64,000 nt of DNA, taken from contig NZ_CP041242.1 in NCBI RefSeq assembly GCF_006547045.1, positions 3,544,001 to 3,608,000 on the forward strand, in the 5' to 3' direction. Source of the stretch: Lysobacter alkalisoli (lineage in GTDB: Bacteria > Pseudomonadota > Gammaproteobacteria > Xanthomonadales > Xanthomonadaceae). The translations under genes were made by a program, and so were the position numbers. Below are positions 1-64,000 of this stretch, piece after piece. The notes under the pieces were generated by a model. The model was not told the DNA's origin. It made no database searches and saw only the letters and a program-made list of their open reading frames with translations. Numbering within the stretch: position 1 is the stretch's first letter; every line of letters begins with the position of its first letter.

Positions 1-2209
1 GATAGTCATGCTGCTCCACCACTCGGCTCTTCTCGAGCCGATCAATCAGACCATCCACTGGAGCATCATCATCCAGTCGCTGTAGCAACAATCCTGCGAT
101 GAGAGCGATCCCTATATCGTCGGGTGCCTCAACCGGGCTGGATGCCTCGGCAGCGTCCATGGCATCACGCATAACGCTCCTGGCAGACTTCGCGGCAACC
201 TGAGCATCACCGCATAGCCATTCTACGGTCGCGGCAGAGATCTGCAGCGCCCGTAGGTACTGCGCTGGCACTTCACTTTTCGGAGTCAACGCGCGCTTCG
301 CTGTCTCATTGGCAACCGTACATTTGCCTTTATCCATCGCAATACTGATACGGTCCAAGCTGGAGACGGCATCGCCTACGGGCGCTTCTTCAAGGAGTTT
401 TTCCGCAGCCGGGAAGTTGTATTGGGCAGCCTCCACATTGGCTCGGCGTCGAAGACTGCTCCTGTTTCCCAAAGTCAATGCCTGGTCGAACGCCGAACCC
501 GCCCCCTCAAAATCCTCCAATCCAAGCTTGACCCTACCGAGCTGGTCGAATGAATTTCCAATGAGTTCGTACTTCAACGACGTAGCTCTATTAGCAAACG
601 GAAGCGCCTCCGAGAATCTGTTCGCTGCCACAAGACGGATGACTACGTTTGCCTGAGCAGGGCCATTGTCCGGATAAAGAGTTGCCATCATGCGCCACTT
701 GGCAAGAGCATTCTGGGGCTCATCAAATTCAGCTACCCAGCCATCCAGATACTGGGCTTCCTTCGGTACAAGCCGCTCACGAAGAGACTGGGCCTTTCTC
801 AGTGAAGGCACCGCGGCTTGGATATCCCACAATCCAAAGCCGGCGCGCGCCCGAGCCAGCCATGCGAGAGCAAATTCGGGATCGATCTCAGTTGCTTTCT
901 GGTAATACGAATCCGCTTCGAGATAGTCGTTCTTGCTGAACGCCTTCTGTCCCAATGCATACGCTCGCAATGCATCAATGTTGTCCGTAGTCACTTCCGG
1001 CAGCGGCTTCGAGTCATGCTCTATCTGTTTGACCGCCTCGCCCAGGTTGGCACGCACGGAACCAGTGACCTGATCGATGGAGGCGAGCACGGATTCCTCG
1101 CCCCTGCCGTCGGCGGCGCGGGCATAGACGGTGGTCTGGGTGAGCGGGTCGACCACTTCGACGCTGAAACGCAGGCGACCACCGATTTCCGAGACCGTGG
1201 GCAGGATGACGGCGCGGGCGCCGTCGCGCTGGGCGATCTGGGAGGCGATGTCGCGATCGACGACGGTACCGGGCTCAAGCCGCATGCGGGCAAGGCTGTC
1301 GCGGACCTTGAGGTCGGACAGCACGTTGACGTGACGCGACTGTTCCAGGCTGATGCGGAAGGCCTGTTCCAGCGAATCCTCCAGGCGGATGTCGCCGGTC
1401 AGGTTGCGCAGGTCACCGACCACGACCCAGTCGCGTTCGTTGAAGGCGATCGCCGGCGGTGTGCGGGTCGCGAACCAGGCGCCGAAGGTGACCGCGACCA
1501 GCACGGCGGCCTCGGCCATGAGCGCGGCCGGCCGGCGCCATAACGGCAGCCGGCGCCACGCCTTGGAGCTGTTGCCCGGAGCACGCAACGGGGCAAGTCC
1601 GGGCTCACCCACCTCGAACACCAGCTGGCGCTCGGCCACTCCCTTGAACTGCCACAGCCCATGCGACTTCCACACCAGGTTCTGGCCGCGCTCGCCAAGC
1701 TCGCGGGCCGAACGGTGCGCCAGCGGTTCGGCGACCGCGGACATCAGAATCTGGCCGGGGCGGGCGATCGACATCAACCGCGCGGCGATGGGCTTGGCCA
1801 GGCCTTCGACCTCGATCGGCTTGGCGCCAAGACGCACCGCCTCGTCGCTGTTGCGCCAGGTCAGCACCTCGCCGACATGCAGACCGGAGCGGGTCTTGAT
1901 GTCGAGATGGCGCAGCTTGCCGATGTCGGCCAGGCCACGGGCATAGTCGAGGGCGAAGCCAAGACCGTCGACAGGGCGCTCGAACAGCAGCAGCAGGCCG
2001 TCGGCGCGGTCGATCAGCCGCCCGCGCCACTGCTGTTGCAAACGCAGGACGAGCCGATCGTGTTCGCGGAAGAACTGTGCGGCACCACCGTCGCCAAGCC
2101 GCTCGACCAGGTTGGTGGAGTCGCAGATGTCGGCCAGCAGGATGGTGCGCAGCAACGGTGCGGCCGACTCGGCCTGGGGCTCGCTCTGGAGCACTACAGC
2201 GTCTTCCAT
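1..2209 (-). CDS. Class III nucleotide cyclase with TPR domain (partial)
   Basis: The gene runs off the left edge; about 736 residues are visible and the C-terminus is missing. Residues 20-200 are a cytoplasmic class III cyclase domain, which would make cAMP or cGMP. Both metal-binding aspartates are visible (Asp27 in LADICDS, Asp70 in DRADG). The substrate-lysine position of adenylate cyclases is Ile66, and the usual Asn of the VNxAAR motif is Pro140 (KPIAARL), so substrate cannot be assigned. One membrane helix (about 227-248) is followed by a probably periplasmic TPR-like region from about residue 410. ATG at 2209 has GAGAGGT just upstream and lies 11 nt after the cNMP-GGDEF gene, so the two form an operon. 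This pairing recalls the Xanthomonas campestris XC_0250/XC_0249 cGMP system. It also resembles the family named putative peptide modification system cyclase. Family sure, substrate unsure. Confidence 0.8.
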   Translation of the reverse strand, partial: MEDAVVLQSEPQAESAAPLLRTILLADICDSTNLVERLGDGGAAQFFREHDRLVLRLQQQWRGRLIDRADGLLLLFERPVDGLGFALDYARGLADIGKLRHLDIKTRSGLHVGEVLTWRNSDEAVRLGAKPIEVEGLAKPIAARLMSIARPGQILMSAVAEPLAHRSARELGERGQNLVWKSHGLWQFKGVAERQLVFEVGEPGLAPLRAPGNSSKAWRRLPLWRRPAALMAEAAVLVAVTFGAWFATRTPPAIAFNERDWVVVGDLRNLTGDIRLEDSLEQAFRISLEQSRHVNVLSDLKVRDSLARMRLEPGTVVDRDIASQIAQRDGARAVILPTVSEIGGRLRFSVEVVDPLTQTTVYARAADGRGEESVLASIDQVTGSVRANLGEAVKQIEHDSKPLPEVTTDNIDALRAYALGQKAFSKNDYLEADSYYQKATEIDPEFALAWLARARAGFGLWDIQAAVPSLRKAQSLRERLVPKEAQYLDGWVAEFDEPQNALAKWRMMATLYPDNGPAQANVVIRLVAANRFSEALPFANRATSLKYELIGNSFDQLGRVKLGLEDFEGAGSAFDQALTLGNRSSLRRRANVEAAQYNFPAAEKLLEEAPVGDAVSSLDRISIAMDKGKCTVANETAKRALTPKSEVPAQYLRALQISAATVEWLCGDAQVAAKSARSVMRDAMDAAEASSPVEAPDDIGIALIAGLLLQRLDDDAPVDGLIDRLEKSRVVEQHDY

Positions 2210-14962: not shown

Positions 14963-15141
14963 CTGACGCTCCTTTTCCCTGGTGATGGCCCTCCGTCCCC
15001 CTGACGGGCCGGGCCGACATGAACGCCCATCCTAGCCCGCGGACCGATACCGGACACTAGGCCACAAGTCCCGGGCCGCATTTGTGGTTTCATGTCGGTG
15101 ATTGCCCACGCACGCCGTCATCCCGCCCCGTGAGGTGCGCC

Positions 15142-15843
15142 ATGTCCCACCCCCGCCGCAGCCTGGTCACCGGCGCGAACCGTGGCCTCGGACTGGAATT
15201 CGCCCAGCAGCTGCTCGAGCGCGGCGACCATGTCGTCGCCACCTGCCGCCAACCCGGCCGGGCATCGGCGTTGAACGGGCTGGTCGGCGAGTACCCGGGC
15301 CGCCTGCACATGCTGCCGCTCAACATCGCCGACCCCCGATCCATCGCCGAGCTGGCGCGCGAACTGCCGCTGGTCTGCGACGGTCTGGACCTGCTGGTCA
15401 ACAACGCCGGCGTGCTGCACTCGGGCGAGCGCTTCGGCAGCGTGCCGCCGGCCAATCTCGACGACAGCTTCCGCACCAACGCCAGCGGCCCGCTGCTGTT
15501 GACCCAGGCGCTGGCCCCCGTGCTGGCGGAGGGCGCGCGGGTGGTGAACCTGTCCTCGTCGTGGGGCTCGGTGAGCGAGCTGGAGGCGTTTCGCACGCCC
15601 AGCTATGCGATCTCCAAGGCCGCCCAGAACATGGTCACCGCCCTGCTGGCCAAAGCGCTGGGCGAGCGCGGGATCGTGGTGCTGGCGATGAACCCGGGCT
15701 GGGTGCAGACCGACATGGGCGGCGCCCACGCCGAACTGACCCCATCCGAATCGGTCGCCGGCATGCTGAAGGTGATCGAGACCGCCGGAGCCGACGACAG
15801 CGGGCGCTTTCTCGACTGGCGTGGCCGGCCGGCGCCTTGGTGA
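15142..15843 (+). CDS. Short-chain dehydrogenase/reductase
   Basis: A 233-residue classical SDR with the cofactor motif TGANRGLG (10-17), the NNAG motif (87-90), and catalytic Ser139/140, Tyr155 and Lys159 (YAISK). Its shortness and the MNPGWVQTDMGG segment resemble the C-factor/sniffer subgroup. The substrate is unknown. The ATG at 15142 has GAGGTG just upstream. It is followed 65 nt later by trmL on the same strand. Confidence 0.88.
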   Translation: MSHPRRSLVTGANRGLGLEFAQQLLERGDHVVATCRQPGRASALNGLVGEYPGRLHMLPLNIADPRSIAELARELPLVCDGLDLLVNNAGVLHSGERFGSVPPANLDDSFRTNASGPLLLTQALAPVLAEGARVVNLSSSWGSVSELEAFRTPSYAISKAAQNMVTALLAKALGERGIVVLAMNPGWVQTDMGGAHAELTPSESVAGMLKVIETAGADDSGRFLDWRGRPAPW

Positions 15844-15907
15844 ACGCACGCCTGAGTTCGGTGCAGCCCGGGGTGCAAGCGGGTGTCTTCAGGCAAGATG
15901 GCGCCCC

Positions 15908-16387
15908 ATGTTCGACGTCATTTTGTTCCAGCCCGAAATCCCGCCCAACACCGGCAACGCGATCAGGCTCTGCGCCAACACCGGCGCCCGCCTGCACCTG
16001 ATCGCCCCGCTCGGTTTCGACATGGACGACCGCCAGCTGCGCCGGGCCGGACTGGACTACCACGAGTACGCCACCGTGCAGATCCACGACGGCCTCGACG
16101 CCGCGCTGGCCGTGATCGCGCAGGCCAACGGCACCCCGCCACGGCTGTTCGCCCTCAGCACCCGTGGCCGCACCCGCTTCGACGCCCCGCGCTACCGGGC
16201 CGGTGACGCCTTCCTGTTCGGCCCCGAGACCCGCGGCCTGCCCGACGCCGTGCTCGACGCACTGCCGCCGGAACAGCGCCTGCGCCTGCCCATGCGCCCC
16301 GGCAACCGCAGCCTGAACCTCTCCAACTCCGTCGCGGTGGTGGTGTTCGAGGCCTGGCGGCAGCAGGGCTTCGACGGCGGCGCCTGA
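15908..16387 (+). CDS. trmL: tRNA (cytidine(34)-2'-O)-methyltransferase
   Basis: Methylates the 2'-OH of the wobble base C34/U34 of tRNA-Leu isoacceptors using S-adenosylmethionine. The 159 residues match E. coli TrmL (157). The minimal SPOUT fold is visible: N-terminal IPPNTGNAIRLCANTG, then FGPETRGLP and the knot segment LNLSNSVAVVVFE. The ATG at 15908 begins the canonical MFDVILFQPEIP; the longer upstream frame overlaps the SDR gene. Confidence 0.95.
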   Translation: MFDVILFQPEIPPNTGNAIRLCANTGARLHLIAPLGFDMDDRQLRRAGLDYHEYATVQIHDGLDAALAVIAQANGTPPRLFALSTRGRTRFDAPRYRAGDAFLFGPETRGLPDAVLDALPPEQRLRLPMRPGNRSLNLSNSVAVVVFEAWRQQGFDGGA

Positions 16388-16475
16388 GCCGTCGTCACCG
16401 CCTGCCGGCGGACATCGGCACAAACCGGGCTCCCGGCGAGCACGGACCCGTGACCATGAACGGGAGCAATAGTTC

Positions 16476-16493
16476 ATGAACCGGCAGGTTCAT
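16476..16493. promoter_or_regulatory. Small inverted repeat in the Ax21-like gene promoter region
   Basis: ATGAACC-GGCA-GGTTCAT forms a perfect 7-bp inverted repeat 112 nt before the Ax21-like gene. A TATTAA sequence follows at 16494-16499 and could be a -10 box. An operator is possible, but no regulator is identified. The rest of 16388-16604 shows nothing else clear. Confidence 0.3.
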
Positions 16494-16604
16494 TATTAAG
16501 TTTTCGTTCCGGAGCGCTGCGGATACTGGCTCACACCGGATGCGACGGCTCCCAAGAAAGCCGCCCTCCGGCCCGATACCAAAGACAATAAAAGGCTGAG
16601 TCCC

Positions 16605-17186
16605 ATGAAGCGTTCCAACGCCATTTCCAAGCTTGCCGCTCTGTCCCTGATCGCTGCCATCCCGTTCGCCGCGTCCGCGGCCGAGGGCGTGTCCTACAAC
16701 TATGTTGAGGCCGGCTACGCCGCCATCAACGGCGACCGTGATGCCGACGGCTGGGCCATCGGCGGCTCCGCCGCGATCGCGCCGAACTTCCACATCTTCG
16801 GCAGCTACAGCAACCAGGAAATCGACAACACCAGCATCGATTTCGACCAGTGGCGCCTGGGCGTGGGCTACAACCACGAAATCAACCGCAATGTCGACCT
16901 GCTGACCCGTGTCGCCTACGAGAAGTTCGACGCCGGCAGCGGCTTGGATTCCGACGGCTGGAGCGTCGAGGCCGGCGTTCGCGGCGCGTTCACCCCGAAC
17001 TTCGAGGGCTACGCGCTGGCCGGCTACGAGGACTACGACGATCTCGCTGGCCAGAAGATCGACGGCGAGTTCTACGGCCGCCTGGGCGCACTGGTGAAAT
17101 TCAACCAGACCTGGGGCATCAGCGGCGACGTCAAGTTCGTCGACGGTGACACCCAGTGGTTCGTGGGCCCGCGCGCCAGCTTCTGA
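16605..17186 (+). CDS. Ax21-family outer-membrane beta-barrel protein
   Basis: A 193-residue protein with a clean signal peptide (cleavage after AASA, about residue 25) and a mature part of alternating short strands ending in the outer-membrane signature ...GPRASF. The mature start AEGVSYNYVEAGY and the overall length match the Ax21 family of Xanthomonas and Stenotrophomonas. Early claims that Ax21 is a secreted quorum or immune elicitor peptide were retracted, so the safe description is a small outer-membrane barrel of unknown role. It is monocistronic and ends at a strong terminator. Confidence 0.85.
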   Translation: MKRSNAISKLAALSLIAAIPFAASAAEGVSYNYVEAGYAAINGDRDADGWAIGGSAAIAPNFHIFGSYSNQEIDNTSIDFDQWRLGVGYNHEINRNVDLLTRVAYEKFDAGSGLDSDGWSVEAGVRGAFTPNFEGYALAGYEDYDDLAGQKIDGEFYGRLGALVKFNQTWGISGDVKFVDGDTQWFVGPRASF

Positions 17187-52875: not shown

Positions 52876-53853
52876 ATGCCTCACACCGCCCAGCCCCTGC
52901 CGGACGCCACCGCCGACCCGACCGTGTTCGGCGCGCTGGCGCTGGAACTGACCGCCGGGGCCGCAGTGGCCCGGACCACCCTGCCGCAGGGCGATGCCGG
53001 TGCGCTGGCCGCGCTGCTGGCCCGCGACCTGGCCGATTTCGAGCCGGAAGCCGCACGGCTGGACCTGGTCACGGTCGGCGCTCATTACGATCCGGTCGAA
53101 CTGCTGCGGCCGGGCTGGCCGCTGCACCGCGAACTGGGCGATCTGGCCGCCCGCGCGCCTCGGCCGGGGCCGGCCGGAGGCAACACCGCCGATGACAGCG
53201 CCGCCGACGGCAGCGCGAACGGCACGATCATCGCCTTCGGCACCCACGAAGGCCGGCTGCCGGGCGCACTGGCGCCATCGGAGGACCATGGCGGCGGCAC
53301 CTTCAGGCTGCTGCCGTTCGTGCTGTCAGGCGATGCCGGCCTGGTCGCCCGCGTCGGCGAAGCGTTCGAGAGCGGCCTGCTCGAACGCGGCATGGCAGGC
53401 GCCGAAACCGCACTGCAGGCGCAGGCCGCATTCGGGATGCGGATCGAACACGCGCGCTACCTGACCGTCCACGACCTCGCCGCGATGACCGCGATGCAAT
53501 ACGAGCACGCCGGCCTGGCCCCGCTGTGGCCGTTGCTGGAAACCGCCCTGCTCGAACCCGGCGGCAGCGCCTGGCTGGATGCGGTGCCCGAGCCGCTGGT
53601 GCACTACACCGGTGGCGAAGCACGCATCGCCCTGTTCCCACCGCGCGCCTGGCACGCGCGCTACGCGCCCGAAGCCCCCTGCGACAGCGACGATTGCCGC
53701 GCCGAGCTCGAACGCCGCTACCAGCACTTCCAGGTCCGCCAGCGCCAGATCGCCGCCGTGCTCGGCGCTCACGGCGTCGCGGTCAACTTCGTGCATTGCG
53801 AACAGCCCGCGGACATATACTTGCAAACCACGGGAACCCCAGACCAAGGCTGA
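52876..53853 (+). CDS. Hypothetical protein
   Basis: 325 residues, no signal peptide or membrane helix, acidic. I do not recognise the family. It contains patches VTVGAHYDPVELLRPGWPLH, GTHEGRLPGAL, EDHGGGTFRLLPFVL and QQ-rich C-terminal HFQVRQRQIAAVLGAHGVAVNFVHCE. Similar proteins are, as far as I recall, confined to Xanthomonadaceae. It is divergent from the thiolase gene and ends 48 nt before the large regulator gene. Confidence 0.8.
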   Translation: MPHTAQPLPDATADPTVFGALALELTAGAAVARTTLPQGDAGALAALLARDLADFEPEAARLDLVTVGAHYDPVELLRPGWPLHRELGDLAARAPRPGPAGGNTADDSAADGSANGTIIAFGTHEGRLPGALAPSEDHGGGTFRLLPFVLSGDAGLVARVGEAFESGLLERGMAGAETALQAQAAFGMRIEHARYLTVHDLAAMTAMQYEHAGLAPLWPLLETALLEPGGSAWLDAVPEPLVHYTGGEARIALFPPRAWHARYAPEAPCDSDDCRAELERRYQHFQVRQRQIAAVLGAHGVAVNFVHCEQPADIYLQTTGTPDQG

Positions 53854-53901
53854 TTCTCCCCCAGCAACCGCTTTCGAGGGCCTGTCCGACGAGGAGTTGC
53901 T

Positions 53902-56900
53902 GTGAATCAACCGCCGATCGCCAAGCTTTCAGCGCCACGCACGGCCCATCTTGTCCGGCGCCCACGGATTGTCGCTGCGATCGATTCCGCCCTGCAGGGC
54001 GGAATCTGCTGGATCGCGACACCGGCGGGCTACGGCAAGACCACGGCGCTGGCCGATTACCTGGGCAAACCCGCACGACCGAATGTCTGGTACCGCGTCG
54101 ACGAGAGCGACCAGGACATCGCCAGCTTCTTCCACTACCTGGCCCAGGCTCCCCGGCAGAGTGATGGCACGCGGCCCATGCCGGTCTTCGGCCCGGAGTA
54201 TGCCGACCAGCCCGAAGCCTTCGCGAGACGCGCCTTCCGCAGCTGGTTCGACACGCTGCGCGACGGCACCGTCCTGGTCCTGGACGACCTGCACTGCGCC
54301 GACACTCCCGCATTTCGCCATGTGCTGGCGACGCTGCTACGCGAGCTGCCGGACACGCTGCACTGTGTCTGCCTGTCGCGCACCCTCCCCCCCTCCGAAC
54401 TGAACGACCTGATGCTGGCTGGCCGGATCGCCGTGCTCGACCAGCCGGCGCTCGAGTTCACCCACGAGGAGGCATGCGCCCTGATCAGCGCTCGCACGAC
54501 CGCGACGTCGGAGACAGTGGATGTCTCCGTGGCTGGCGGCTGGGCGGCGGGGCTGGTCCTGCTGACCCAGCACGACCTGCTTGCCCGCCTGCAGGTTCGC
54601 AACATCGGCACCTCGGCTGCACGCGGCAGGGAGGCTGCCGTCTTTGAAGCGCTCGGGCAGATGCTGTTCGACACCCTGGCTCCTGCGGAGCAGGACCTGC
54701 TGTTGCAATTGGGCATGGTCCCCGAGATACCGCCGGACCTGGTCGCGGCGTTGGTGGGAACCGAGCAGGCGCATGCTTCCCTGGAGCGCCTGCATCAGCT
54801 GCAACTGCTGGTGGCTACTGGCGACTCGGACCGACTGGTTTTCCAGATGCACGATCTGCTGCGTGGATTCCTGCAGGCCCGGCTTGCCGAGAAGCTGCAG
54901 GGCGAAGACCTGGCCCGGCTCGGCGGGCAGATCGCCGAACTGCTCGACAGGTCCGGCCATCCGGAAGATGCCATCGATCTGGCGCTGCGCGTCCAGGCAT
55001 GGCCGCTCGCACATCGGTTCATCCTGGACCGGGCCGCCATCGTCCTGGCCCAGGGCCGGCGGGCCACCCTGATCGACTGGTGCGCGCGATTGCCGGAGTC
55101 CGAACTCGATGCCTGGCTCTACTATTGGCTGGGCGTGGCCCACACAACCGACGACGCCGCGGCGGAGACCTGGCTGGCGCGCGCATGGGAGCGCTTCGTC
55201 GAGCTGGGCGATCTTCATGGCCAGACGCTCACGGCGGCGCGCGCCGTGCTGATCAAGACCGACAGCTGGCGCACCCACGCCGGCCTTCCCGCCTGGACCC
55301 GGCGCGCGCTGCGACTGGCCGGGCAGGACCTGCCACCGCTGCAGGGCGATGAGGAACTGCTGGTCCTGGCGGGGCTGGTGCGTGCCTTCGATTTCGCCGA
55401 GCAGTACCGCAGCGAAGCCGACGCGGTGAAGCGACTGGAGCAGCGCCTGCTGCAACGGCTGTTGCAGCCGCAGGCGGATGACTCGAACACCCTGCGCATG
55501 CTGGCCAGCGGCGTGCTGGTGCAGCGTGCTGGCTCGACCGCACAGGCCGACCTGTTCTCGCAGGCCGTGGACGCCATCGGCGACGTGCTGAACGATGAGA
55601 ACGTCCCACCGATGGTGCGCGGCCTGTGGCTGGTGGACTTCGGCACGGTCAGTGGCCGCTACTTCCCGTATGCGCGTCGTGGCTTCCCGTATGCAGACGC
55701 GGAGCAGGCGCTGCATGCGGCGATCACCATTGGCGAACACGAACAGCTACGCAGCGTGGAGTTCGGTGCGATCTACCATCTCCAGGTGCTGACGAAGCTT
55801 CGCAACGATTTCGCGGAGTTCGAGCGCCTGGTCGATCGCCTGACCCGGATCGCAGACAGCCGCTACAGCACCCAGACGGATGTCGTAGCCGATTGCCAGG
55901 TCGCACTGCATACCCGGCGCGGGGACCTGCCCGAAGCTTATCGGGCCTGCGAGCGTTGCATGGCCGCGGTGGAAGCAGCCAACGAACCGCCGATCGAACG
56001 CTGGCCCCACTACATCACCCACTACCAGGTGCTGTTGGCCGACAGCCGTGAACGGGAGGCAGCAAGCCTGCTTCAGGAGCACCTGCCGCAGTTCGATGGC
56101 GGCGTCAGGCAGCGGACCGAAGCGGCCATCGCCCTGGCTCATGCACTGCAAGCCAGATCCAGAGGGGACACCGACGCCTACGGCGAGTTGTTGCGCAATG
56201 CCATGGCCCGGCTGCGAGCCACGGACTGGACCGCCGTGCTGATCAATCTTCCGGAACTGCTGGCCGAGGTGTGTGCCGATGCGCTTGCGCAGGAGGTCGA
56301 GCCCGAATTCGTCCGCAGCTTGATCGCGCGCCGCAGGCTGCAGCCCCCGCTGGAGCGGCCATCGCACTGGCCATGGACGTTGCGCGTGCAGGTGCTGGGT
56401 GAGTTCCGGCTACAGCTCGACGGTGCCCCGCTCGCATTCGGTACCCGCTCTCCGCCGCGCATGCTCGACATTCTTCGCGTGCTGGCTGTCGCTCCCGGAC
56501 ACACCTGTGCGGTCGAGAAGCTCCATGACTGGCTCTGGCCGGAGGCTGAGGGCGACCGCGCCAAGGCCGCCTGCGACCAGGCCCTGCATCGGCTGCGCAA
56601 GGCGCTGGGACGCGCCGACCTGGTATTGCTTCGCGAAGGAAAACTCAGCCTGGCGCGCGAGGCGGTATGGGTGGATCTGGCCGACTGGGAACACAAGCTC
56701 GCCCAGGCACTGTCCCCCGCGTCACCGGGAGCGGCCGACTCGAGGTCCAGGGAGTCCGCGCTGGAGCACGTGTTCCGCGCGTTCACCGGCCCGCTGCTGC
56801 AACACGAGCGCGCCAGCGAATGGTCGATCCCCGCGGCCGAACGTACCCGCAGCAAGCTGATCGGCCTGGCGCTGGAACTGGGTCGTTGCCGCGAGGCACG

Positions 56901-57120
56901 CAACATGCCGGCCGAAGCGCAATCGCTCTACCTGCACGCGCTTGATTTCTATCCCGCTTCCACCCGCCTGTTCGAGGCCCTGATCCGCGCCAGACTGGCC
57001 GCCGATGACTCCGCCGGCGCGCTTGCAGCCTACGCCCGCTACGAGCGGGTCCGACAGACCGCCCTCGATACACCCGCCTCGGCCGCCATCCGACGGATGG
57101 TCGCACCCCTGCTCGCGTAA
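53902..57120 (+). CDS. STAND-ATPase transcriptional activator with SARP-type BTAD output
   Basis: 1072 residues. The N-terminal third is a MalT-like STAND NTPase: Walker A ATPAGYGKTT (Lys46), Walker B VLVLDDLH (about 123-130), and an arm region through about 370. A long TPR-like helical domain follows (about 380-800), the usual ligand or partner sensor. Instead of the LuxR helix-turn-helix of MalT, the C-terminus carries an OmpR/SARP winged helix (from about 824, LRVQVLGEFRLQLDG) and a BTAD domain (about 920-1070). GTG start with GAGGAG five bases upstream. Its stop codon overlaps the first CGTAAGT repeat operator, and the array of beta-helix genes follows. It probably activates that array; the signal is unknown. 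Confidence 0.9.
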   Translation: MNQPPIAKLSAPRTAHLVRRPRIVAAIDSALQGGICWIATPAGYGKTTALADYLGKPARPNVWYRVDESDQDIASFFHYLAQAPRQSDGTRPMPVFGPEYADQPEAFARRAFRSWFDTLRDGTVLVLDDLHCADTPAFRHVLATLLRELPDTLHCVCLSRTLPPSELNDLMLAGRIAVLDQPALEFTHEEACALISARTTATSETVDVSVAGGWAAGLVLLTQHDLLARLQVRNIGTSAARGREAAVFEALGQMLFDTLAPAEQDLLLQLGMVPEIPPDLVAALVGTEQAHASLERLHQLQLLVATGDSDRLVFQMHDLLRGFLQARLAEKLQGEDLARLGGQIAELLDRSGHPEDAIDLALRVQAWPLAHRFILDRAAIVLAQGRRATLIDWCARLPESELDAWLYYWLGVAHTTDDAAAETWLARAWERFVELGDLHGQTLTAARAVLIKTDSWRTHAGLPAWTRRALRLAGQDLPPLQGDEELLVLAGLVRAFDFAEQYRSEADAVKRLEQRLLQRLLQPQADDSNTLRMLASGVLVQRAGSTAQADLFSQAVDAIGDVLNDENVPPMVRGLWLVDFGTVSGRYFPYARRGFPYADAEQALHAAITIGEHEQLRSVEFGAIYHLQVLTKLRNDFAEFERLVDRLTRIADSRYSTQTDVVADCQVALHTRRGDLPEAYRACERCMAAVEAANEPPIERWPHYITHYQVLLADSREREAASLLQEHLPQFDGGVRQRTEAAIALAHALQARSRGDTDAYGELLRNAMARLRATDWTAVLINLPELLAEVCADALAQEVEPEFVRSLIARRRLQPPLERPSHWPWTLRVQVLGEFRLQLDGAPLAFGTRSPPRMLDILRVLAVAPGHTCAVEKLHDWLWPEAEGDRAKAACDQALHRLRKALGRADLVLLREGKLSLAREAVWVDLADWEHKLAQALSPASPGAADSRSRESALEHVFRAFTGPLLQHERASEWSIPAAERTRSKLIGLALELGRCREARNMPAEAQSLYLHALDFYPASTRLFEALIRARLAADDSAGALAAYARYERVRQTALDTPASAAIRRMVAPLLA

Positions 57121-57133
57121 GTCCGACGTAAGT
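57116..57133 (+). promoter_or_regulatory. SARP-type direct-repeat operator 1 (CGTAAGT-CCGA-CGTAAGT)
   Basis: Two identical heptamers with a 4-nt spacer give an 11-bp period, one helical turn, as in SARP binding sites. It overlaps the stop codon of the regulator gene. The last base is 90 nt before the first beta-helix ATG, the same distance as at operator 3. Confidence 0.7.
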
Positions 57134-57222
57134 CTTCCCGGCGCACAGTTCCGCCAACGGAGACGCCCACCCGGCGACAGCACACCGGGAATGCCTCCGT
57201 GGCCTGCGCCAGGAGGTGCCCC

Positions 57223-58089
57223 ATGCTCCGTACCGTCATGCTGTTTGCCGTCATCGCATTGTTCCTGCTCGGCCCGGATCGTCCGGCCCATGCCGAGACC
57301 CATCACACCTGCAAGGGTTTCATCGATTCGCTGCCGGCCACCATCTCCACCCAAGGCGTCTGGTGCCTGCGCAAGGATCTGAGCAACGCCATGACCAGCG
57401 GCAGCGCGATCACGGTCAACGCCAACAACGTCACCCTCGACTGCAACGGTTTCAAGATCGGCGGACTGGCGGCAGGTCCGGGAACCCTGGCCAATAGCAT
57501 CAGCGCCAACGGCCGGTTCAACCTGACCGTGCGTCACTGCAACATCCGTGGCTTCCTGCGCGGGATCTACGCCACATCCGGCGGCGCCCACCTGGTCGAG
57601 CGCAATGGCCTGGACAGCAACACGCTCAGTGCCATCGCCATCTTCGGTCCGGGATCGACGATCCGCGGCAACAGGGTGGTCGACACCGGGGGTACGACTG
57701 CACCGCTCTACATCTACACGGCGGGCATCTATGCCGGTAACGGCATCGACATCATCGACAATACGGTCACGGGTGTCGTGGGACCCGGCAATGGCACCAC
57801 CGCAACGACCTACGGCATCAGGACCCAGTTCAACGGCAACGGCAGCGTCACGGCAAACCGCGTGCGCGACCTTGTTCCTGCCGGGGGCGGGACGGTCAGG
57901 GGGATACTCAATTCCAGTTCCGGCCGTCTGGTGGTGCGCGACAACGACGTACAGGATTCCGGCCATGCCAACGGCGTGGGCGTGAGCTGCACCAGCAACC
58001 AGAGTACGGCGCGCGGCAATGTCGTCAGCGGCTTTGCCACCGGGATCAGCAACTGTGCGCTGAGCGGAAACTACGTCAATGCGAACTGA
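57223..58089 (+). CDS. Secreted parallel beta-helix protein, array copy A
   Basis: 288 residues with a signal peptide (cleavage after AHA). The mature start CKGFIDSLPATISTQGVWCLRKDLS introduces a cysteine-patterned N-cap. It is followed by repeated short strands typical of right-handed parallel beta-helices (ITVNANNVTLDC, LTVRHCNIRGF, GSTIRGNRVVDTGG, VVRDNDVQDSG). Six cysteines are shared by the array. I cannot assign an enzyme activity; no lyase catalytic motif is visible. The ATG at 57223 has AGGAGG six bases upstream. It heads the first unit behind operator 1 and is 127 nt before copy B. Confidence 0.88.
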   Translation: MLRTVMLFAVIALFLLGPDRPAHAETHHTCKGFIDSLPATISTQGVWCLRKDLSNAMTSGSAITVNANNVTLDCNGFKIGGLAAGPGTLANSISANGRFNLTVRHCNIRGFLRGIYATSGGAHLVERNGLDSNTLSAIAIFGPGSTIRGNRVVDTGGTTAPLYIYTAGIYAGNGIDIIDNTVTGVVGPGNGTTATTYGIRTQFNGNGSVTANRVRDLVPAGGGTVRGILNSSSGRLVVRDNDVQDSGHANGVGVSCTSNQSTARGNVVSGFATGISNCALSGNYVNAN

Positions 58090-58216
58090 GCCGATACCGC
58101 TCTCCCGGATACGCCAGCCCGATTCATGCAGCCCATCGGCACGACGCCTGGCGATGGATGCGGCGTGCCGGTAGCGGCACCTGCGCAACCGCTCATTCAA
58201 TGCGAGGAGGGTCGTC

Positions 58217-59095
58217 GTGTTTCCCGTGTTCCTCACAGTTCTTCCAATCGCCATCGCAGCACTCCTTGTCTTTTCTCCGGTCCATCGGGCCCATGCTGCC
58301 GGGAGCTACGGCAACTGCACCGGTTTCATCGACTCGCTGCCGGCCACCATCGGCACCCAGGGCACCTGGTGCCTGCGCAAGGACCTGAGCACCGGCATGA
58401 GCAGCGGCAACGCGATCACGGTCAACGCCAACAACGTCACCCTCGACTGCAACGGTTTCAAGATCGGCGGGCTGGCCGCCGGGGTGGGGACCAACGCCAA
58501 TGGCATCCGGGCCGACAACCGCTTCAACCTGACTGTCCGCCGCTGCAATGTCCGCGGGTTCAGGGCGGGCATCCATACCTCGGGGGGTGGCGGCCACCTT
58601 ATCGAACACAATCGTCTGGACGGCAATACCCTCGTCGGCCTCGCCATCCAGAGTTCCGCCTCGAGGATCAGTAGCAACCACGTGATCGATACCGGCGGCT
58701 CGACGGCCACAACCGGGTTCGCCGAGGGAGTCTTCGCGACCTCGGGCGTGGACATCGTCGACAACACCGTCAGTGGGGTGCTTCCTACGCCCAACGGCAG
58801 CGGCATCGGCTGGGCCTATGGCATCTATGCCAACTCGAATGACGGGGGCACCATCACCGGCAATCGCGTCCGCGGTCTGGTGCCGGCGGGAGCAGGCGCG
58901 GCCAGGGGAATCTACGATCTGCAGGCCGGTCGCGCCATCGTGCGTGGCAACGATGTCCAGGGCAATGGTGGCAGCGGCAGTGTGGGCGTGCATTGCAGCA
59001 ACAACAAGGGCACGGCCCGCGACAACCTGATCGCCGGATTCGAGACCGGAATCCAGAACTGCCTGGCTTCCGGCAATACCGTCAACGGAAACTGA
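58217..59095 (+). CDS. Secreted parallel beta-helix protein, array copy B
   Basis: 292 residues, GTG start with AGGAGG six bases upstream, signal peptide cleaved near AHA. The same framework as copy A: NCTGFIDSLPATIGTQGTWC, LDCNGFKIGGLAAG, NRVRGLVPAGAG, VRGNDVQGNGGSG and a closing GFETGIQNCLASGN. All six array cysteines are present. No operator repeat lies upstream, so it is probably co-transcribed with copy A. Confidence 0.88.
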   Translation: MFPVFLTVLPIAIAALLVFSPVHRAHAAGSYGNCTGFIDSLPATIGTQGTWCLRKDLSTGMSSGNAITVNANNVTLDCNGFKIGGLAAGVGTNANGIRADNRFNLTVRRCNVRGFRAGIHTSGGGGHLIEHNRLDGNTLVGLAIQSSASRISSNHVIDTGGSTATTGFAEGVFATSGVDIVDNTVSGVLPTPNGSGIGWAYGIYANSNDGGTITGNRVRGLVPAGAGAARGIYDLQAGRAIVRGNDVQGNGGSGSVGVHCSNNKGTARDNLIAGFETGIQNCLASGNTVNGN

Positions 59096-59097
59096 GG

Positions 59098-59115
59098 CGT
59101 AAGCCCAACGTTAGT
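59098..59115 (+). promoter_or_regulatory. SARP-type direct-repeat operator 2 (CGTAAGC-CCAA-CGTTAGT)
   Basis: Each heptamer differs by one base from the CGTAAGT consensus; spacing is again 4 nt. It begins two bases after the copy B stop codon and precedes a remnant copy and an unknown gene. Confidence 0.6.
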
Positions 59116-59167
59116 CGCCCGTGCCCAGACTGCCGACCTGCATCAGGCAACCCGAGGAAGCCATGCC

Positions 59168-59374
59168 ATGCACCCCCATGCGCACCCAGTCCATCGGGCG
59201 GGCCATGCCGGCCGCCATGACCGCAACTGCCGTCCCGGTCCCGGCCCGCGCTGCGACAGCAGGCCCGGCAGCGCCAACAACAGTATCGTCGACGGCTTCA
59301 GCACCGGCATTTCCGGCAGCGGCAGCGGCAGCGGCACCGGCACCGGCACCGGCGACGGCAACGTGACCAAGTAA
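59168..59374 (+). pseudogene. Remnant of a beta-helix array copy
   Basis: A 68-codon frame whose second half reads CDSRPGSANNSIVDGFSTGIS, matching the C-terminal pattern of the array (xC..rGtArdN.I.GF.TGI). It ends in a low-complexity Gly-Ser-Gly-Thr run and DGNVTK. The signal peptide and helix body are missing, so a large internal deletion is likely. An Ala/Pro-rich frame from 59163 overlaps it and is not credible. Confidence 0.45.
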
Positions 59375-59378
59375 CAGT

Positions 59379-60071
59379 ATGGACGCTTACCTGCTGCGGT
59401 TCGAACGGCTCGAGATCCTCGCCACCGTGAGCGAGGGTGTTCGCCCGGACAATGACTGGCTGTTGCTTCACTGGTTCTCCGGTTCGCACCCCGAGCCGCC
59501 CCGGATCATGCCGCTTCGCAACGCAACCGGATCCACGTTACTGGTCGCAGGCGACATGATCCCGCCATTCTCGTGCGCATGCGAACTGCCATGTGCGGAT
59601 CCCCTCCCGGTGTTCCTGGCATTCCTGATTGTCGAACTGGGCGCCTACCCGCCCGCCGAACAGCCCAGGCGGGCCAACGCAGCCAACAGGAAAGTCGCCG
59701 ACCTGCTTGCCGAGGCCTACGTCGAGGCGAACGAATGGGTAGCGGAGAGCCGGGGCATTGTCCGCGCCGATGCTGCCGCCATCGACACGGCGCTCTCCCA
59801 AGGAATCGTGGACTCAATCGCGCCGGCCTTCGTCGAGGAAGCCCGCACCAGGTTGGCACGGGATGGCTGGTCCGGTACCGGTGGGAGACCCGTTCTCCAT
59901 GACGTGGTTGCATTCAGCCCTGCGCCGAAGGCGTCACGTCTGACACTTGAACGCGCCTATCCCGACGACGGCCATGGTTCCGCTGGCGCCCGCGTCGCCC
60001 TGCGGCTCGTTCTTGAGCAATGCGATCGCCTGTCCCCATCGCTTCCGGCATCGAGAGTGCCGCTCGTATAA
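59379..60071 (+). CDS. Hypothetical protein inside the beta-helix array
   Basis: 230 residues, no signal peptide or membrane helix. I do not recognise it. Visible features are an N-terminal beta-rich part (MDAYLLRFERLEILATV, DNDWLLLHWFSG) and a CxCxxxC cluster (SCACELPC). A helical centre (NRKVADLLAEAYVEANEWVAESRG) and a C-terminal part with VVAFSP complete it. It begins five bases after the remnant copy and is the only non-paralogous gene in the array, under operator 2 by position. A partner or regulator of the beta-helix proteins is possible; there is no direct evidence. Confidence 0.7.
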   Translation: MDAYLLRFERLEILATVSEGVRPDNDWLLLHWFSGSHPEPPRIMPLRNATGSTLLVAGDMIPPFSCACELPCADPLPVFLAFLIVELGAYPPAEQPRRANAANRKVADLLAEAYVEANEWVAESRGIVRADAAAIDTALSQGIVDSIAPAFVEEARTRLARDGWSGTGGRPVLHDVVAFSPAPKASRLTLERAYPDDGHGSAGARVALRLVLEQCDRLSPSLPASRVPLV

Positions 60072-60139
60072 GCCCTCACAAGTCGACATGCCGCTGGAGG
60101 GTGCCCGGCATCGACGCGATTCCGGCTACGGCAGCGACG

Positions 60140-60157
60140 CGTAAGTCCAACGTAAGT
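60140..60157 (+). promoter_or_regulatory. SARP-type direct-repeat operator 3 (CGTAAGT-CCAA-CGTAAGT)
   Basis: A perfect heptamer pair with a 4-nt spacer. The last base is 90 nt before the copy D ATG, exactly as for operator 1. The leader between can form a CGGAAGCC hairpin; the leader after operator 1 has a similar layout. Confidence 0.7.
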
Positions 60158-60246
60158 TCCCTCTGGGCAGGCTGTTTTCCAGCGGAAGCCATAGCCCGGC
60201 GCGGAGAGCACCGGCGGCTTCCGACCTACCAGACAGGAGACCCGGC

Positions 60247-61104
60247 ATGTTCCGCATCATCCCACTTTCGCTTGCCGCCATGGTGCTCGGAGGGCTCTCT
60301 GGGACGTCCAGTGCCGCCGAAAGCTATGACAACTGCACCGGCTTCATCAACTCTGTACCGGCCACCATCGTCACCCAGGGCACCTGGTGTCTCAACAAGG
60401 ATCTGGGCACTGGCATGGCCAGCGGTGCGGCGATCACCGTCAACACCAACAACGTCACCATCGACTGCAACGATTTCAAGCTCGGGGGTCTGGCAGCAGG
60501 AACCGGCACGCTGACCATCGGCATCCAGGCCAACAGCCGCTACAACCTCACTGTCCGTCAATGCAACATTCGCGGTTTCAATCGCGGCGTGGCAACCACG
60601 AATGGCGGTGGTCACAGGATCGAGAACAACCGCTTCGACAGCAATACGCTGCGCGGCATCGACATCCAGAGCCCGGGCTCGGTCATCCGCGGCAATCTGG
60701 TGATCGATACCGGGGGCTCCACCTCGAGCGCCGCTGCGGCATATGGAATCAATGCGGCGGACGGCGTCGACATCATCGACAACACGGTCATTGGGGTGGC
60801 ACCGGGCGGCACCAATGCGAATGCCTTTGGCATTGGTTCCAACTTCAACGGTGATGGCAGCATCAACAGCAACCGTGTCCGCGGCCTGGCCGCCAACGGA
60901 ACCGGGCTGGCTTTCGGGATCTACAACACCAACTCCGGCCGGATCGTGGTCCGGGACAACGACGTCCAGGGAACCGGCAGTACAGGCAGCATCGGCATCC
61001 GCTGCATTACAGACCAGGGAACGGCACGGGGCAACATCATCAGCGGCTTCAATACCAGCATCCAGAACTGTCTGTCTTCGAACAACACGATGAACACGAA
61101 CTGA
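60247..61104 (+). CDS. Secreted parallel beta-helix protein, array copy D
   Basis: 285 residues with signal peptide (cleavage near SSA-AES). Mature start ESYDNCTGFINSVPATIVTQ, then TWCLNKDL, ITVNTNNVTIDCND, LTVRQCNIRGFNRG, NRVRGLAANGTG, VVRDNDVQGTG and the end NCLSSNNTMNTN. All six array cysteines are kept. ATG with CAGGAG seven bases upstream. It heads a run of four copies (D-G) behind operator 3. Confidence 0.88.
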   Translation: MFRIIPLSLAAMVLGGLSGTSSAAESYDNCTGFINSVPATIVTQGTWCLNKDLGTGMASGAAITVNTNNVTIDCNDFKLGGLAAGTGTLTIGIQANSRYNLTVRQCNIRGFNRGVATTNGGGHRIENNRFDSNTLRGIDIQSPGSVIRGNLVIDTGGSTSSAAAAYGINAADGVDIIDNTVIGVAPGGTNANAFGIGSNFNGDGSINSNRVRGLAANGTGLAFGIYNTNSGRIVVRDNDVQGTGSTGSIGIRCITDQGTARGNIISGFNTSIQNCLSSNNTMNTN

Positions 61105-61114
61105 GGAGATCGCC

Positions 61115-61984
61115 ATGCATTCCATGGCTCCGTCACTCGCCCTCGTGCTGTTGTCGGCCTGCGCCGCTTGGTCTTCAGCACTGGCCTCCGAGGACTACGA
61201 CAACTGCACTGGTTTCATCGACTCGTTGCCAGCCACGATCAGCACCCAGGGCACCTGGTGTCTGCGCAAGGATCTGTCCACCGGCATGATCAGCGGCAGC
61301 GCGATCGAGATCGCCGCCAACAATGTCACCCTCGACTGCAATCATTTCAAGCTCGGCGGCCTGGGTGCAGGCACCGGAACCGGCGCCGTCGGCATCAACG
61401 CCGTCGACCGGAAGAACGTGACCGTGCGCCACTGCAGTATCCGCGGGTTCTGGTTCGGTATGTCGACTTGGGGCGGCGACGGCCACCTGGTCGAGCGGAA
61501 CACGTTCGACAGCAACAGGCTCTACTCTGTCCGGGTCAACAGCCCGCAATCGACGATACGGGCCAACCTGATCGTCAACACTGGCGGGTCTACTGCCGGC
61601 GTCGGTGACGCGCAGGCCATACGCACCGACAACGGCACCGACATCATCGACAACACCATCAGCGGCGTGGCGCCGGGAACCACCGATGCCTCGGCCTACG
61701 GCATCTTCGTTGCCGCCGTGTCCTCCAACCTTCCGGCCACTGTCGCCCGCAACCGTATCCGCGGGCTGACGCCAAACGGAACCGGCGTGGCCCACGGTAT
61801 CCACATTTTCAACAGCAACCACACCGTAGTGCGCGACAACGACGTCCAGGGCAACGCCGCCCCCGGCAGTGTCGGCGTGCACTGCGGCAGCGACCGCGGC
61901 ACGGCACGGGACAACAACATCAGCGGGTTCGCAACGGGTGTCGTCAATTGCCTGTTCGCCGGCAACATTGTCAATTCGAACTGA
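61115..61984 (+). CDS. Secreted parallel beta-helix protein, array copy E
   Basis: 289 residues, signal peptide cleaved near ALAS. Starts 10 nt after copy D, with GAGGAG in the gap, so it is co-transcribed. Framework conserved: NCTGFIDSLPATISTQGTWC, LDCNHFKLGGLGAG, VTVRHCSIRGFW, NRIRGLTPNGTG, VVRDNDVQGNAAPGSVGVHC, and NCLFAGNIVNSN at the end. The surface strand bases between these marks diverge more than the N-terminal block. Confidence 0.88.
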   Translation: MHSMAPSLALVLLSACAAWSSALASEDYDNCTGFIDSLPATISTQGTWCLRKDLSTGMISGSAIEIAANNVTLDCNHFKLGGLGAGTGTGAVGINAVDRKNVTVRHCSIRGFWFGMSTWGGDGHLVERNTFDSNRLYSVRVNSPQSTIRANLIVNTGGSTAGVGDAQAIRTDNGTDIIDNTISGVAPGTTDASAYGIFVAAVSSNLPATVARNRIRGLTPNGTGVAHGIHIFNSNHTVVRDNDVQGNAAPGSVGVHCGSDRGTARDNNISGFATGVVNCLFAGNIVNSN

Positions 61985-62148
61985 GCGGCGGGCAGCGCTG
62001 TCCGACTCCCCGATGCCCGACGGGCCCGCGCGCCTGGCCGCACCCGTTCGCCATCTGCGTTCCTGCCAGTAGCACTGCCGCACGTGCCGCGTGGCGCTGA
62101 CGGCAGGCTGTCACCAATCCACGAATCCAGCCATGCGAGGGGCTTCCG

Positions 62149-63012
62149 ATGATCCGCACTCTGACCTGTCTCGCCCTGACCTGCGTGGCCCTGTCCATCT
62201 GCCCGTCCCTGGCCCGGGCCGCCGAGAGCTACGACAACTGCACGGGCTTCATCAGTTCGCTGCCTGCCACCATTTCCACCCAAGGCACCTGGTGCCTGAA
62301 CAAGGACCTGTCCACAGGCGTGACCAGCGGCAGCGCGATCACCGTCAACACCAACAACGTCACTCTCGATTGCAATCACTTCAAGCTGGGTGGGCTGGCG
62401 GCGGGCCTCGGCACAACGGCAACCGGCATTCGTGCCGACACCAGGCAGAACCTTACGGTTCGCAATTGCAACATCCGGGGATTCCAGACAGGAGTCGCCG
62501 CCGTTGGCAATGGCAGTGGCCATCTTGTGGAGAACAGCAAATTCGACAAGAACACGCATACCGCTATCGATGTCAGGGGCGATGGCAATCTGGTGCGCAA
62601 CAACATCGTCATCGACACCGGCGGCGGCACCGGGAACCCTGAAGCGAACGGCATTCACGGCCAAGGCAATACCGATATCCGCAACAATCAGGTCGATGGC
62701 GTCATCGGAACCGGTGGCAGCAATACGACCGTGTACGGTATCCGCCTCACCGGGGGCCATGGCGCCGCTGTTGGCCAGAATGTCGTCCGCAACACGGTAC
62801 CCACTGGAACCGGCCTTGCCCGCGGGATCTACACCTCCAACGGGTTGAAGATCTTCCTGGACGACAACCGCGTCAGCCTGCCCTCACCGCTCGCCGGCTC
62901 ACAAGGCTATCGCTGCAACTCCTCCAATGGCGCATTGCGCAACAGCACCTCCTGGGGTTTTGCAACCGCCAACTCCGGCTGTCTGGATGACGGCGGTAAT
63001 GCGGTCCACTGA
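62149..63012 (+). CDS. Secreted parallel beta-helix protein, array copy F (divergent C-terminus)
   Basis: 287 residues with signal peptide (cleavage near ARA-AES). The first half is nearly the array consensus (YDNCTGFISSLPATISTQ, TNNVTLDCNHFKLGGLAAG). The second half drifts: the VRDNDVQG strand becomes FLDDNRVSLPS, and the end is SGCLDDGGNAVH instead of the usual NCL..GN. Six cysteines are still found. It lies 164 nt after copy E without an operator. Confidence 0.87.
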   Translation: MIRTLTCLALTCVALSICPSLARAAESYDNCTGFISSLPATISTQGTWCLNKDLSTGVTSGSAITVNTNNVTLDCNHFKLGGLAAGLGTTATGIRADTRQNLTVRNCNIRGFQTGVAAVGNGSGHLVENSKFDKNTHTAIDVRGDGNLVRNNIVIDTGGGTGNPEANGIHGQGNTDIRNNQVDGVIGTGGSNTTVYGIRLTGGHGAAVGQNVVRNTVPTGTGLARGIYTSNGLKIFLDDNRVSLPSPLAGSQGYRCNSSNGALRNSTSWGFATANSGCLDDGGNAVH

Positions 63013-63045
63013 GCTTTAACGCAACACCTGCCTATCCCTGAGGAC

Positions 63046-63882
63046 GTGGGCACACCACCTCACGTATCGAGGAAGTCTTCCGAGGCCGCCGAGAGCTACG
63101 ACAACTGCACCGGTTTCACCAGTTCGCTGCCGGCCACAATCGCATCCCAGGGCACCTGGTGCCTGAACAAGGACGTGTCCACCAGCATGACCAGCGGCGA
63201 CGCGATAACCATCAACACCAACAACGTCACCCTCGACTGCAATCACTTCAAGATTGGCGGGCTTGCGGCAGGCACGGGCACAGTCACCAATGGAGTCCGG
63301 GCAGCGTCCAGGTTCAATGCGACGGTCAGGAACTGCAACATCCGCGGCTTCTATCGTGGCGTCTATCTCAACGCAGGCGGCGGGCACCTGGTCGAGAACA
63401 GCAGCTTCGACGGCAATACGCTCTATGGCATCTACGTCATCAGCTCCAATTCCACCATCCGCAACAACCTGGTCATCGACACAGGTGGTTCGACGGCGTC
63501 CACAAGCCTTGCCGCGGGAATCTTCGCGGCGTTCGGCGTGGACATCATCAACAACACCGTCAACGGCGTCGCACCGACCGGCACGGATACCAGCGCAATC
63601 GGAATCAACACAGACTTCAATGGCAGCGGCAGCATCAGCGGCAACCGGGTCCGGGGGCTGGCACCGACGGGCGCAGGCGTGCCTTACGGCATTTACACCA
63701 CCAACACGGGGCGGAGCATCATCCGCGACAACGACGTGCAGGGACCCGGTCCCGGCGTGGCTGGAAGCCTCGGGATACGCTGCTTCACCAATGAAGGGAC
63801 GGTCCTCGACAACGCGATTGCAGGATTCCAGACGGGCATCGCCAACTGTTTTACCGGTTCGAATGTCGTGAACTCGAACTGA
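63046..63882 (+). CDS. Beta-helix array copy G, without signal peptide
   Basis: 278 residues from a GTG at 63046. The mature framework is complete (ESYDNCTGFTSSLPATIASQ, TWCLNKDVST, LDCNHFKIGG, NCNIRGFYRG, NRVRGLAPTGAG, IIRDNDVQGPG, NCFTGSNVVNSN). The N-terminus, however, is the polar MGTPPHVSRKSSEAA rather than a signal peptide. No signal-coding sequence exists in the other frames of the 33-nt gap after copy F. It is either cytoplasmic, a decaying copy, or relies on recombination with an expressed copy. Confidence 0.75.
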   Translation: MGTPPHVSRKSSEAAESYDNCTGFTSSLPATIASQGTWCLNKDVSTSMTSGDAITINTNNVTLDCNHFKIGGLAAGTGTVTNGVRAASRFNATVRNCNIRGFYRGVYLNAGGGHLVENSSFDGNTLYGIYVISSNSTIRNNLVIDTGGSTASTSLAAGIFAAFGVDIINNTVNGVAPTGTDTSAIGINTDFNGSGSISGNRVRGLAPTGAGVPYGIYTTNTGRSIIRDNDVQGPGPGVAGSLGIRCFTNEGTVLDNAIAGFQTGIANCFTGSNVVNSN

Positions 63883-63935
63883 TTCCGTGAGAGCTGCCTT
63901 TCTGGACGCCCGTGACAGTCCGGAAAGGCTTCCCA

Positions 63936-63953
63936 CGTAAGCCCAACGCAAGT
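63936..63953 (+). promoter_or_regulatory. SARP-type direct-repeat operator 4 (CGTAAGC-CCAA-CGCAAGT)
   Basis: Two heptamers, each one base from consensus, with the same CCAA spacer as operators 2 and 3. It follows copy G by 53 nt and stands right before a further remnant at the window edge. Confidence 0.6.
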
Positions 63954-63956
63954 CGG

Positions 63957-64000
63957 TGCACGATCGTCGCCAACAACGTCATTCTCGACCGCAAACACGG
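63957..64000 (+). pseudogene. Start of another beta-helix remnant at the right edge
   Basis: The frame CTIVANNVILDRKH matches the array block AITVNANNVTLDCNH only 3 nt after operator 4. There is no room for a leader, start codon or signal peptide, and the LDC cysteine is Arg. This is probably a truncated copy; the window ends inside it. Confidence 0.45.

Follow-up and report, generated by a model that had tools for sequence, protein, structure and literature searches.

The regulators that most resemble the one considered here join a sensing ATPase to a DNA-binding output. In MalT of Escherichia coli, a signal transduction ATPase with numerous domains (STAND) is N-terminal and the output sits at the C-terminus, as a LuxR-type helix-turn-helix. 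AfsR of Streptomyces, a large Streptomyces antibiotic regulatory protein (SARP) with a nucleotide-binding oligomerization domain (NOD) and tetratricopeptide repeats (TPR), fuses its SARP output to a STAND/NOD ATPase, carries it at the N-terminus and acts on antibiotic regulation. PimR and the other SARP-LAL regulators also combine an N-terminal SARP with an ATPase-type region in one protein and target a pathway regulator gene. In published SARP promoters the repeats are spaced by 11 or 22 bp, and 8 bp separate the -10 from the 3' repeat (PMC10936776); the PimR operator is described as heptamers with 4-nt spacers (PMC5930380), with the consensus CGGCAAG. The present work concerns a 64,000-nucleotide stretch of Lysobacter alkalisoli (bases 3,544,001-3,608,000 of the complete 3,857,091-base genome), referred to below as the window, in which the gene of a STAND-SARP regulator is followed by an array of beta-helix genes and by repeats resembling a SARP operator. 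The best reading of the sequence is that of an acquired STAND-SARP activator with its own operator, here wired to a locally amplified beta-helix array. That regulator, operator and array belong together as an activator regulon is held to be probable, at roughly 80%. None of the titles and abstract openings listed, most subscription papers being out of reach, describes an array or operator of this kind.

Organization of the locus

The features of the locus, all on the plus strand, are as follows; ORF stands for open reading frame.

53902-57120 (+): STAND-SARP regulator, 1072 aa (ORF call, profile matches)
57117-57134 (+): operator 1, GTAAGTCCGACGTAAGTC; overlaps the regulator stop codon, 88 nt 5' of the unit 1 ATG
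57144-57149 (+): candidate -10 of operator 1, CACAGT
57223-58089 (+): beta-helix unit 1, signal-like N-terminus; frame open from a GTG at 57199; Pfam NosD match just below cut-off, no Beta_helix match
58217-59095 (+): beta-helix unit 2, signal-like N-terminus; without its own operator
59099-59116 (+): operator at remnant A, GTAAGCCCAACGTTAGTC (repeat pattern)
59126-59131 (+): candidate -10 of the operator at remnant A, CAGACT
59189 to about 59375 (+): doubtful beta-helix remnant A, C-terminal scraps; end set by a stop codon
59379-60071 (+): 230-aa ORF within the array (ORF call); may not belong to the system
60141-60158 (+): operator 3, GTAAGTCCAACGTAAGTT; 88 nt 5' of the unit 3 ATG
60168-60173 (+): candidate -10 of operator 3, CAGGCT
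60247-61104 (+): beta-helix unit 3, signal-like N-terminus (ORF call, paralogue search, profile)
61115-61984 (+): beta-helix unit 4, signal-like N-terminus; begins 10 bases past unit 3; lipobox possible by eye
62149-63012 (+): beta-helix unit 5, signal-like N-terminus; the most divergent unit
63046-63882 (+): beta-helix unit 6, no signal-like N-terminus (ORF call, paralogue search, profile)
63937-63954 (+): operator at remnant B, GTAAGCCCAACGCAAGTC; lacks a -10-like hexamer in the expected position
63945-64000 (+), on to about 64227 beyond the window: beta-helix remnant B (paralogue search)

The first-pass annotation, made from the sequence of the window, had described a 1072-residue MalT-like ATPase ending in a winged helix plus BTAD, and this description holds for the ORF at 53902-57120. 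The protein consists of a MalT-like ATPase (about 7-390), a middle sensor region that by inference is TPR-like, and a C-terminal OmpR-like winged helix followed by BTAD (about 817-1068). Structure matching, for which a profile was built from the regulator and two orthologues, aligned the solved MalT ATPase part (8bob) with residues 7-390 (E 5.9e-36) and the AfsR SARP domain (8hvr, 44-283) with residues 817-1056 (E 4.4e-5), and EmbR (2fez) was also matched (E 4.3e-4). A Walker A motif, AGYGKTT, can be read in the sequence. Because of these three profile matches, taken together with the single-protein Pfam scores, which stay just below their cut-offs (see below), the regulator is assigned from its sequence as a STAND ATPase in front with a SARP output at the back, the opposite order to AfsR. 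It thus shares its N-terminal part with MalT, yet its output is a SARP, and the NCBIfam MalT model gives 137 bits over 7-402, far under the whole-length cut-off of 537. The genome holds a single full-length copy of the regulator. A second, weak SARP-like stretch with an in-frame TGA is located elsewhere in the same genome (G000:C1:2413956-2414471, minus strand).

The array begins directly after the regulator, as had been proposed: the first beta-helix ATG (57223) lies 102 bases past the regulator stop. The six near-full-length paralogues (278-292 aa, all on the plus strand) are 48-62% identical in pairs, and their proposed membership of one beta-helix family is borne out by the Pfam Beta_helix profile (PF13229), whose gathering cut-off is passed by five; unit 1 has a sub-threshold NosD match only. 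The units had been described as cysteine-braced, and six cysteines are invariant in all six of them. Export had been expected of the whole family. Hydrophobic, signal-like starts, judged by hydropathy and by eye without a signal-peptide program, are present in five units and lacking in unit 6 (63046), so that the predicted exportable units are five, not six. Two remnants had also been proposed. Remnant B is clear (63945-64227, best match 3e-13), whereas remnant A is doubtful, since its best match (6e-5 without composition correction) is equalled by an antisense match in the same stretch (8e-5). The array is, moreover, not continuous: it is interrupted by the 230-aa ORF at 59379-60071, whose GC content at third codon positions is below that of its neighbours and which found no match in Pfam, NCBIfam or plasmid records.

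The genome contains six further copies of the beta-helix family, dispersed over five other places. A quick tree of 48 family members unites five of the six array units in one clade with a support of 97 in the SH-aLRT branch test, and all six fall to the same side of a branch with a support of only 71, grouped rows counted. The dispersed copies are intermixed with copies of other genomes, and 20 of the 45 inner branches are unresolved. The units have probably multiplied locally. One-strand beta-helix clusters, without a STAND-SARP regulator nearby, also occur in a genome of another genus (G104; L092 4248-17941 and L095 4184-8728), which contributes 18 paralogues from four places to the tree, compared to 12 from the present genome.

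The operator and its promoter geometry

The putative operator is a heptamer repeat near GTAAGYC-N4-GTAAGYY with an 11-bp period. It is found at 57117, 59099, 60141 and 63937, where the second and the last of these sites deviate by one base in the second heptamer. None of 100 shuffles of the window contained such a site, against four in the window itself. When the 18-mer GTAAGTCCAACGTAAGTC was searched at up to three mismatches in the 3.86-Mb genome, it gave four matches, all on the plus strand in the array, and the reversed control gave one; the heptameric operators of SARP type that had been suggested are thus the only four such matches in the genome. A relaxed pattern occurs without mismatch at three array sites only and with one mismatch at the fourth array site and at three sites outside the array, such that no convincing operator seems to exist elsewhere in this genome. 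The idea that operators stand at the heads of the units survives in part: an operator lies within 600 bases upstream of two of the six units (1 and 3), with the same spacing of 88 nt to the ATG, and the remaining two operators stand at remnants.

The arrangement of these sites is close to that of the published promoters, with a period of 11 and, by the heptamer boundaries chosen here, a hexamer at a distance of 9 nt. Across 12 sites (four in the window, four at a Mesorhizobium locus, two elsewhere in Mesorhizobium, one in Neorhizobium and one in a more distant genome, G320, the last and the two elsewhere in Mesorhizobium being included on weaker grounds), a hexamer NANNNT starts 9 nt past the repeat in 10 cases, as opposed to 8 of 300 at other offsets; among the two exceptions is the G320 site, with TATAAA at this position. 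A search of 53800-64000 for sigma-70 consensus promoters gave none, against 1.4 in shuffles. The likeness to AfsR extends to the DNA: the AfsR operator consists of direct repeats with an 11-bp period that overlap the -35, with a poor -10 just downstream; the heptamer, however, is another one. The heptamer with a 4-nt spacer is likewise shared with PimR.

The operator in rhizobial relatives

The best relatives of the regulator that were found belong to Mesorhizobium sp. LSHC420B00 (48% identity; locus L119) and to a plasmid of Neorhizobium petrolearium (49%; locus L129). For the latter, the frame is broken in the deposited annotation but reads open from 13851 to 17156. The operator repeat recurs at both loci. 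At L119 it is found at 13178 and 13488 on the plus strand and at 9898 and 9261 on the minus strand, directed at neighbouring genes, although for 9898 this is true only if the gene starts at a later ATG than that of the ORF called. At L129 it is found at 17160 (+), starting on the fourth base past the stop of the regulator ORF. The four L119 sites fall in a stretch of 5.25 kb, for which 300 shuffles give a mean of 0.04 and a maximum of 1. A matrix derived from the five rhizobial sites alone ranks the window sites first to fourth in the 64 kb (scores 17.1-12.0, the fifth score being 11.2). In the reverse direction, a matrix derived from the four window sites ranks the L119 sites first, second, fourth and fifth; the L129 site comes first, though narrowly (12.8 vs 12.4).

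No beta-helix gene is present among the ORFs called at either rhizobial locus, and Pfam gave no match for seven neighbours of the Mesorhizobium regulator and two of the Neorhizobium one. An operator (up to two mismatches, within 600 bases upstream) precedes none of the six dispersed beta-helix genes of this genome and none of the 36 taken from others. Across the loci seen, the operator accompanies the regulator and not the beta-helix gene.

Two observations concern sites far from these orthologues. Contig C2 of the Mesorhizobium genome (L126) carries an operator-like site with a -10-like hexamer at 1501-1518 (-), far from the regulator and 81 bases 5' of a gene (1-1419, minus strand) that encodes repeats like SRIPNSMEVWWIGPNGSIE and has no Pfam match. 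By eye this gene had been considered a paralogue of a gene at the regulator locus, for which blastp and phmmer give no support. In G320 (L133 7436-12894), a SARP-TPR gene of more distant kinship lacks the ATPase part; an operator of the same type lies 42 bases past its stop, and then come a 73-aa ORF and the gene of a DUF7948/SBBP beta-propeller protein of 977 aa.

Distribution and insertion site

The distribution of the two components was surveyed by scoring at most two regulator candidates per genome in the family, the order, the phylum and the family of Mesorhizobium, and at most eight beta-helix candidates per genome; since so few were scored, a missing match in any of these surveys is no proof of absence. 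Within the genus, where all candidates were scored, the regulator matches one of seven genomes, its own, and none of the six congeners; nor was the beta-helix family found in these six, with up to eight candidates scored in each. Regulator matches were obtained in 48 of 297 family genomes and 56 of 397 order genomes, and in five of 398 phylum genomes at E 1e-30, its own included. Many of these matches are restricted to the MalT-like front, and that of one genome in the phylum survey (G668) covers 19-1055 at 27% identity. In the family of Mesorhizobium, 29 of 297 genomes match at 1e-20, among them LSHC420B00, the only full-length one among the matches listed. A further 172 plasmid records match the regulator, one of them over at least 80% of its length; plasmid records gave no beta-helix relative at 1e-10. 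Around regulator homologues of about 30% identity, exact period-11 heptamers within 1.5 kb have no sequence in common, and no beta-helix ORF was found in the 6-19 kb around eight of them or around the two rhizobial regulators of 48-49% identity. The beta-helix family itself occurs in 35 of 297 family genomes, and the regulator is absent from 13 beta-helix loci fetched from seven of the other genomes.

The insert is bounded by a 325-aa ORF on the left and a GNAT gene on the right, which are 11,512 bases apart here. In all four congeners that hold both flanks, the two genes are adjacent (36-192 bases apart by match ends) and the insert is missing. The remaining two carry a different, unrelated ORF after the 325-aa gene (after 3700 in L205 and after 8700 in L206), and their contigs end before the right flank; this point may thus be a hot spot of insertion. 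Also within the insert, beyond the window and on the opposite strand, is a gene of the bile acid:sodium symporter family (L014 11371-12276; genome 3608370-3609275), which has no match in the congener stretches compared. The regulator was probably acquired horizontally, either together with the array or earlier, the array then being built up next to it. Linkage of regulator and array in related genomes, whose absence the first-pass annotation would have counted against its proposal, is not seen in the loci and samples examined, though the orthologous regulators keep the operator; on this evidence its regulatory inference stands, while a conserved system of regulator plus beta-helix proteins finds no support.

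Alternative explanations

Several results weigh against the activator regulon. Among the loci and samples examined, no genome but this one has the regulator beside such an array. The Pfam scores of the single protein fall just short of the cut-off for both BTAD (21.0 vs 22.1) and Trans_reg_C (20.0 vs 26.2). The operator at remnant B lacks a -10-like hexamer, and the presence of a remnant and of a unit without a signal segment suggests decay. The single L129 site was equalled in 18 of 300 shuffles of its 5.35 kb; in the whole Mesorhizobium genome, up to three mismatches give eight matches against six for the reversed control; and the pattern derived from the window, at up to two mismatches, has 12 matches in 839 kb of other loci, a number that includes two copies from the array, two occurrences of the G320 site and one Mesorhizobium site. 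Finally, the 40 bases downstream of the sites are 17-50% identical between sites, so that some shared descent is possible downstream of three of them.

The alternative that survives best, though unlikely, is a decaying island, in which the array, acquired like the regulator, is now disappearing and no longer serves a function, with the operators as relics. A clear and a doubtful remnant, the missing signal segment of unit 6, the intruding ORF and the failure to find either component in the six congeners would all suit such a history. On the other hand, the regulator frame is open throughout, five units retain signal-like starts and all six their cysteines, and the distance from operator to ATG is equal at units 1 and 3. 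The differences among the units are, in addition, highest at codon position 3 (0.35, 0.30 and 0.47 for positions 1-3), which is a mild sign of constraint.

With respect to the proteins themselves, it seems rather improbable that they are copper-handling or polysaccharide-cleaving enzymes like NosD instead of binders. They share the right-handed beta-helix fold family with NosD by profile and match the NosD models of Pfam and NCBIfam in part, yet the three units tested reach only 23-46 bits in NCBIfam TIGR04247, whose cut-off is 300. NosD is also the sole solved structure among the matches listed, at E 0.75, which leaves the units without a clear sequence relative. Unlike NosD, they are short, single-domain and tandemly arrayed, and they have an invariant cysteine set of their own.

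It is improbable, too, that the array is incidental and that the regulator mainly controls genes at other places, whose sites would be too diverged for detection. Mesorhizobium does have sites far from its regulator, one of them upstream of the repeat-protein gene, and in this genome the relaxed pattern is matched, with one mismatch, at three places beyond the array. Without mismatch, however, the pattern has no site outside the array, and at up to two mismatches the genome contains 59 matches compared to 101 for the reversed control, a control that was not split by mismatch.

The notion that the repeats are hitch-hiking DNA, a short intergenic element without regulatory role that was copied along by tandem duplication of the units, draws on the confinement of all four window sites to the duplicated array, where two stand at remnants, and on downstream flanks that are 40-50% identical at three sites, but it is very improbable given that the sites are 83-89% identical to one another and their upstream 60-base flanks only 15-42%, and that the repeat adjoins regulator orthologues where no beta-helix ORF was found and is missing upstream of the foreign and dispersed beta-helix genes.

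Proposed mechanism and implications

If the activator regulon is real, the insert would be self-contained. An inducer would release the MalT-type STAND ATPase and allow it to oligomerise, as can be surmised from MalT and AfsR. The C-terminal SARP domains would then bind side by side on the heptamer repeats at the promoters of the array, standing in for a good -35, and would bring RNA polymerase to the poor -10 that starts nine bases downstream; this geometry is taken from the sequence, and the activation from AfsR. Transcripts would span units 1-2 and units 3-6. Because these transcripts would cover both groups, up to five beta-helix proteins, presumably bearing disulfides, may be made and exported by the Sec route to the periplasm or outside. 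Both the predicted activation and the control by an inducer are inferred and not read from the sequence. Binding of a polymer or a surface is the likeliest role of the proteins, though a guess at well below even odds.

The analysis predicts from sequence, with a cross-check against two rhizobia, a cognate operator for a regulator that joins a MalT-like front to a SARP output at the C-terminus. This operator could serve as a handle, both to report the signal read by the STAND sensor and to locate further cargo genes. In one genome, a beta-helix family without an assigned function is also placed in a candidate inducible regulon. More tentatively, and with less than even odds, the STAND-SARP sensor-activator and its operator may form a mobile control cassette that moves between bacterial classes and is rewired to different cargo each time. 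Such a cassette would provide one signal-sensing switch and one DNA code for exchangeable accessory proteins, the cargo being the beta-helix array in this Lysobacter genome and other gene sets in rhizobia.

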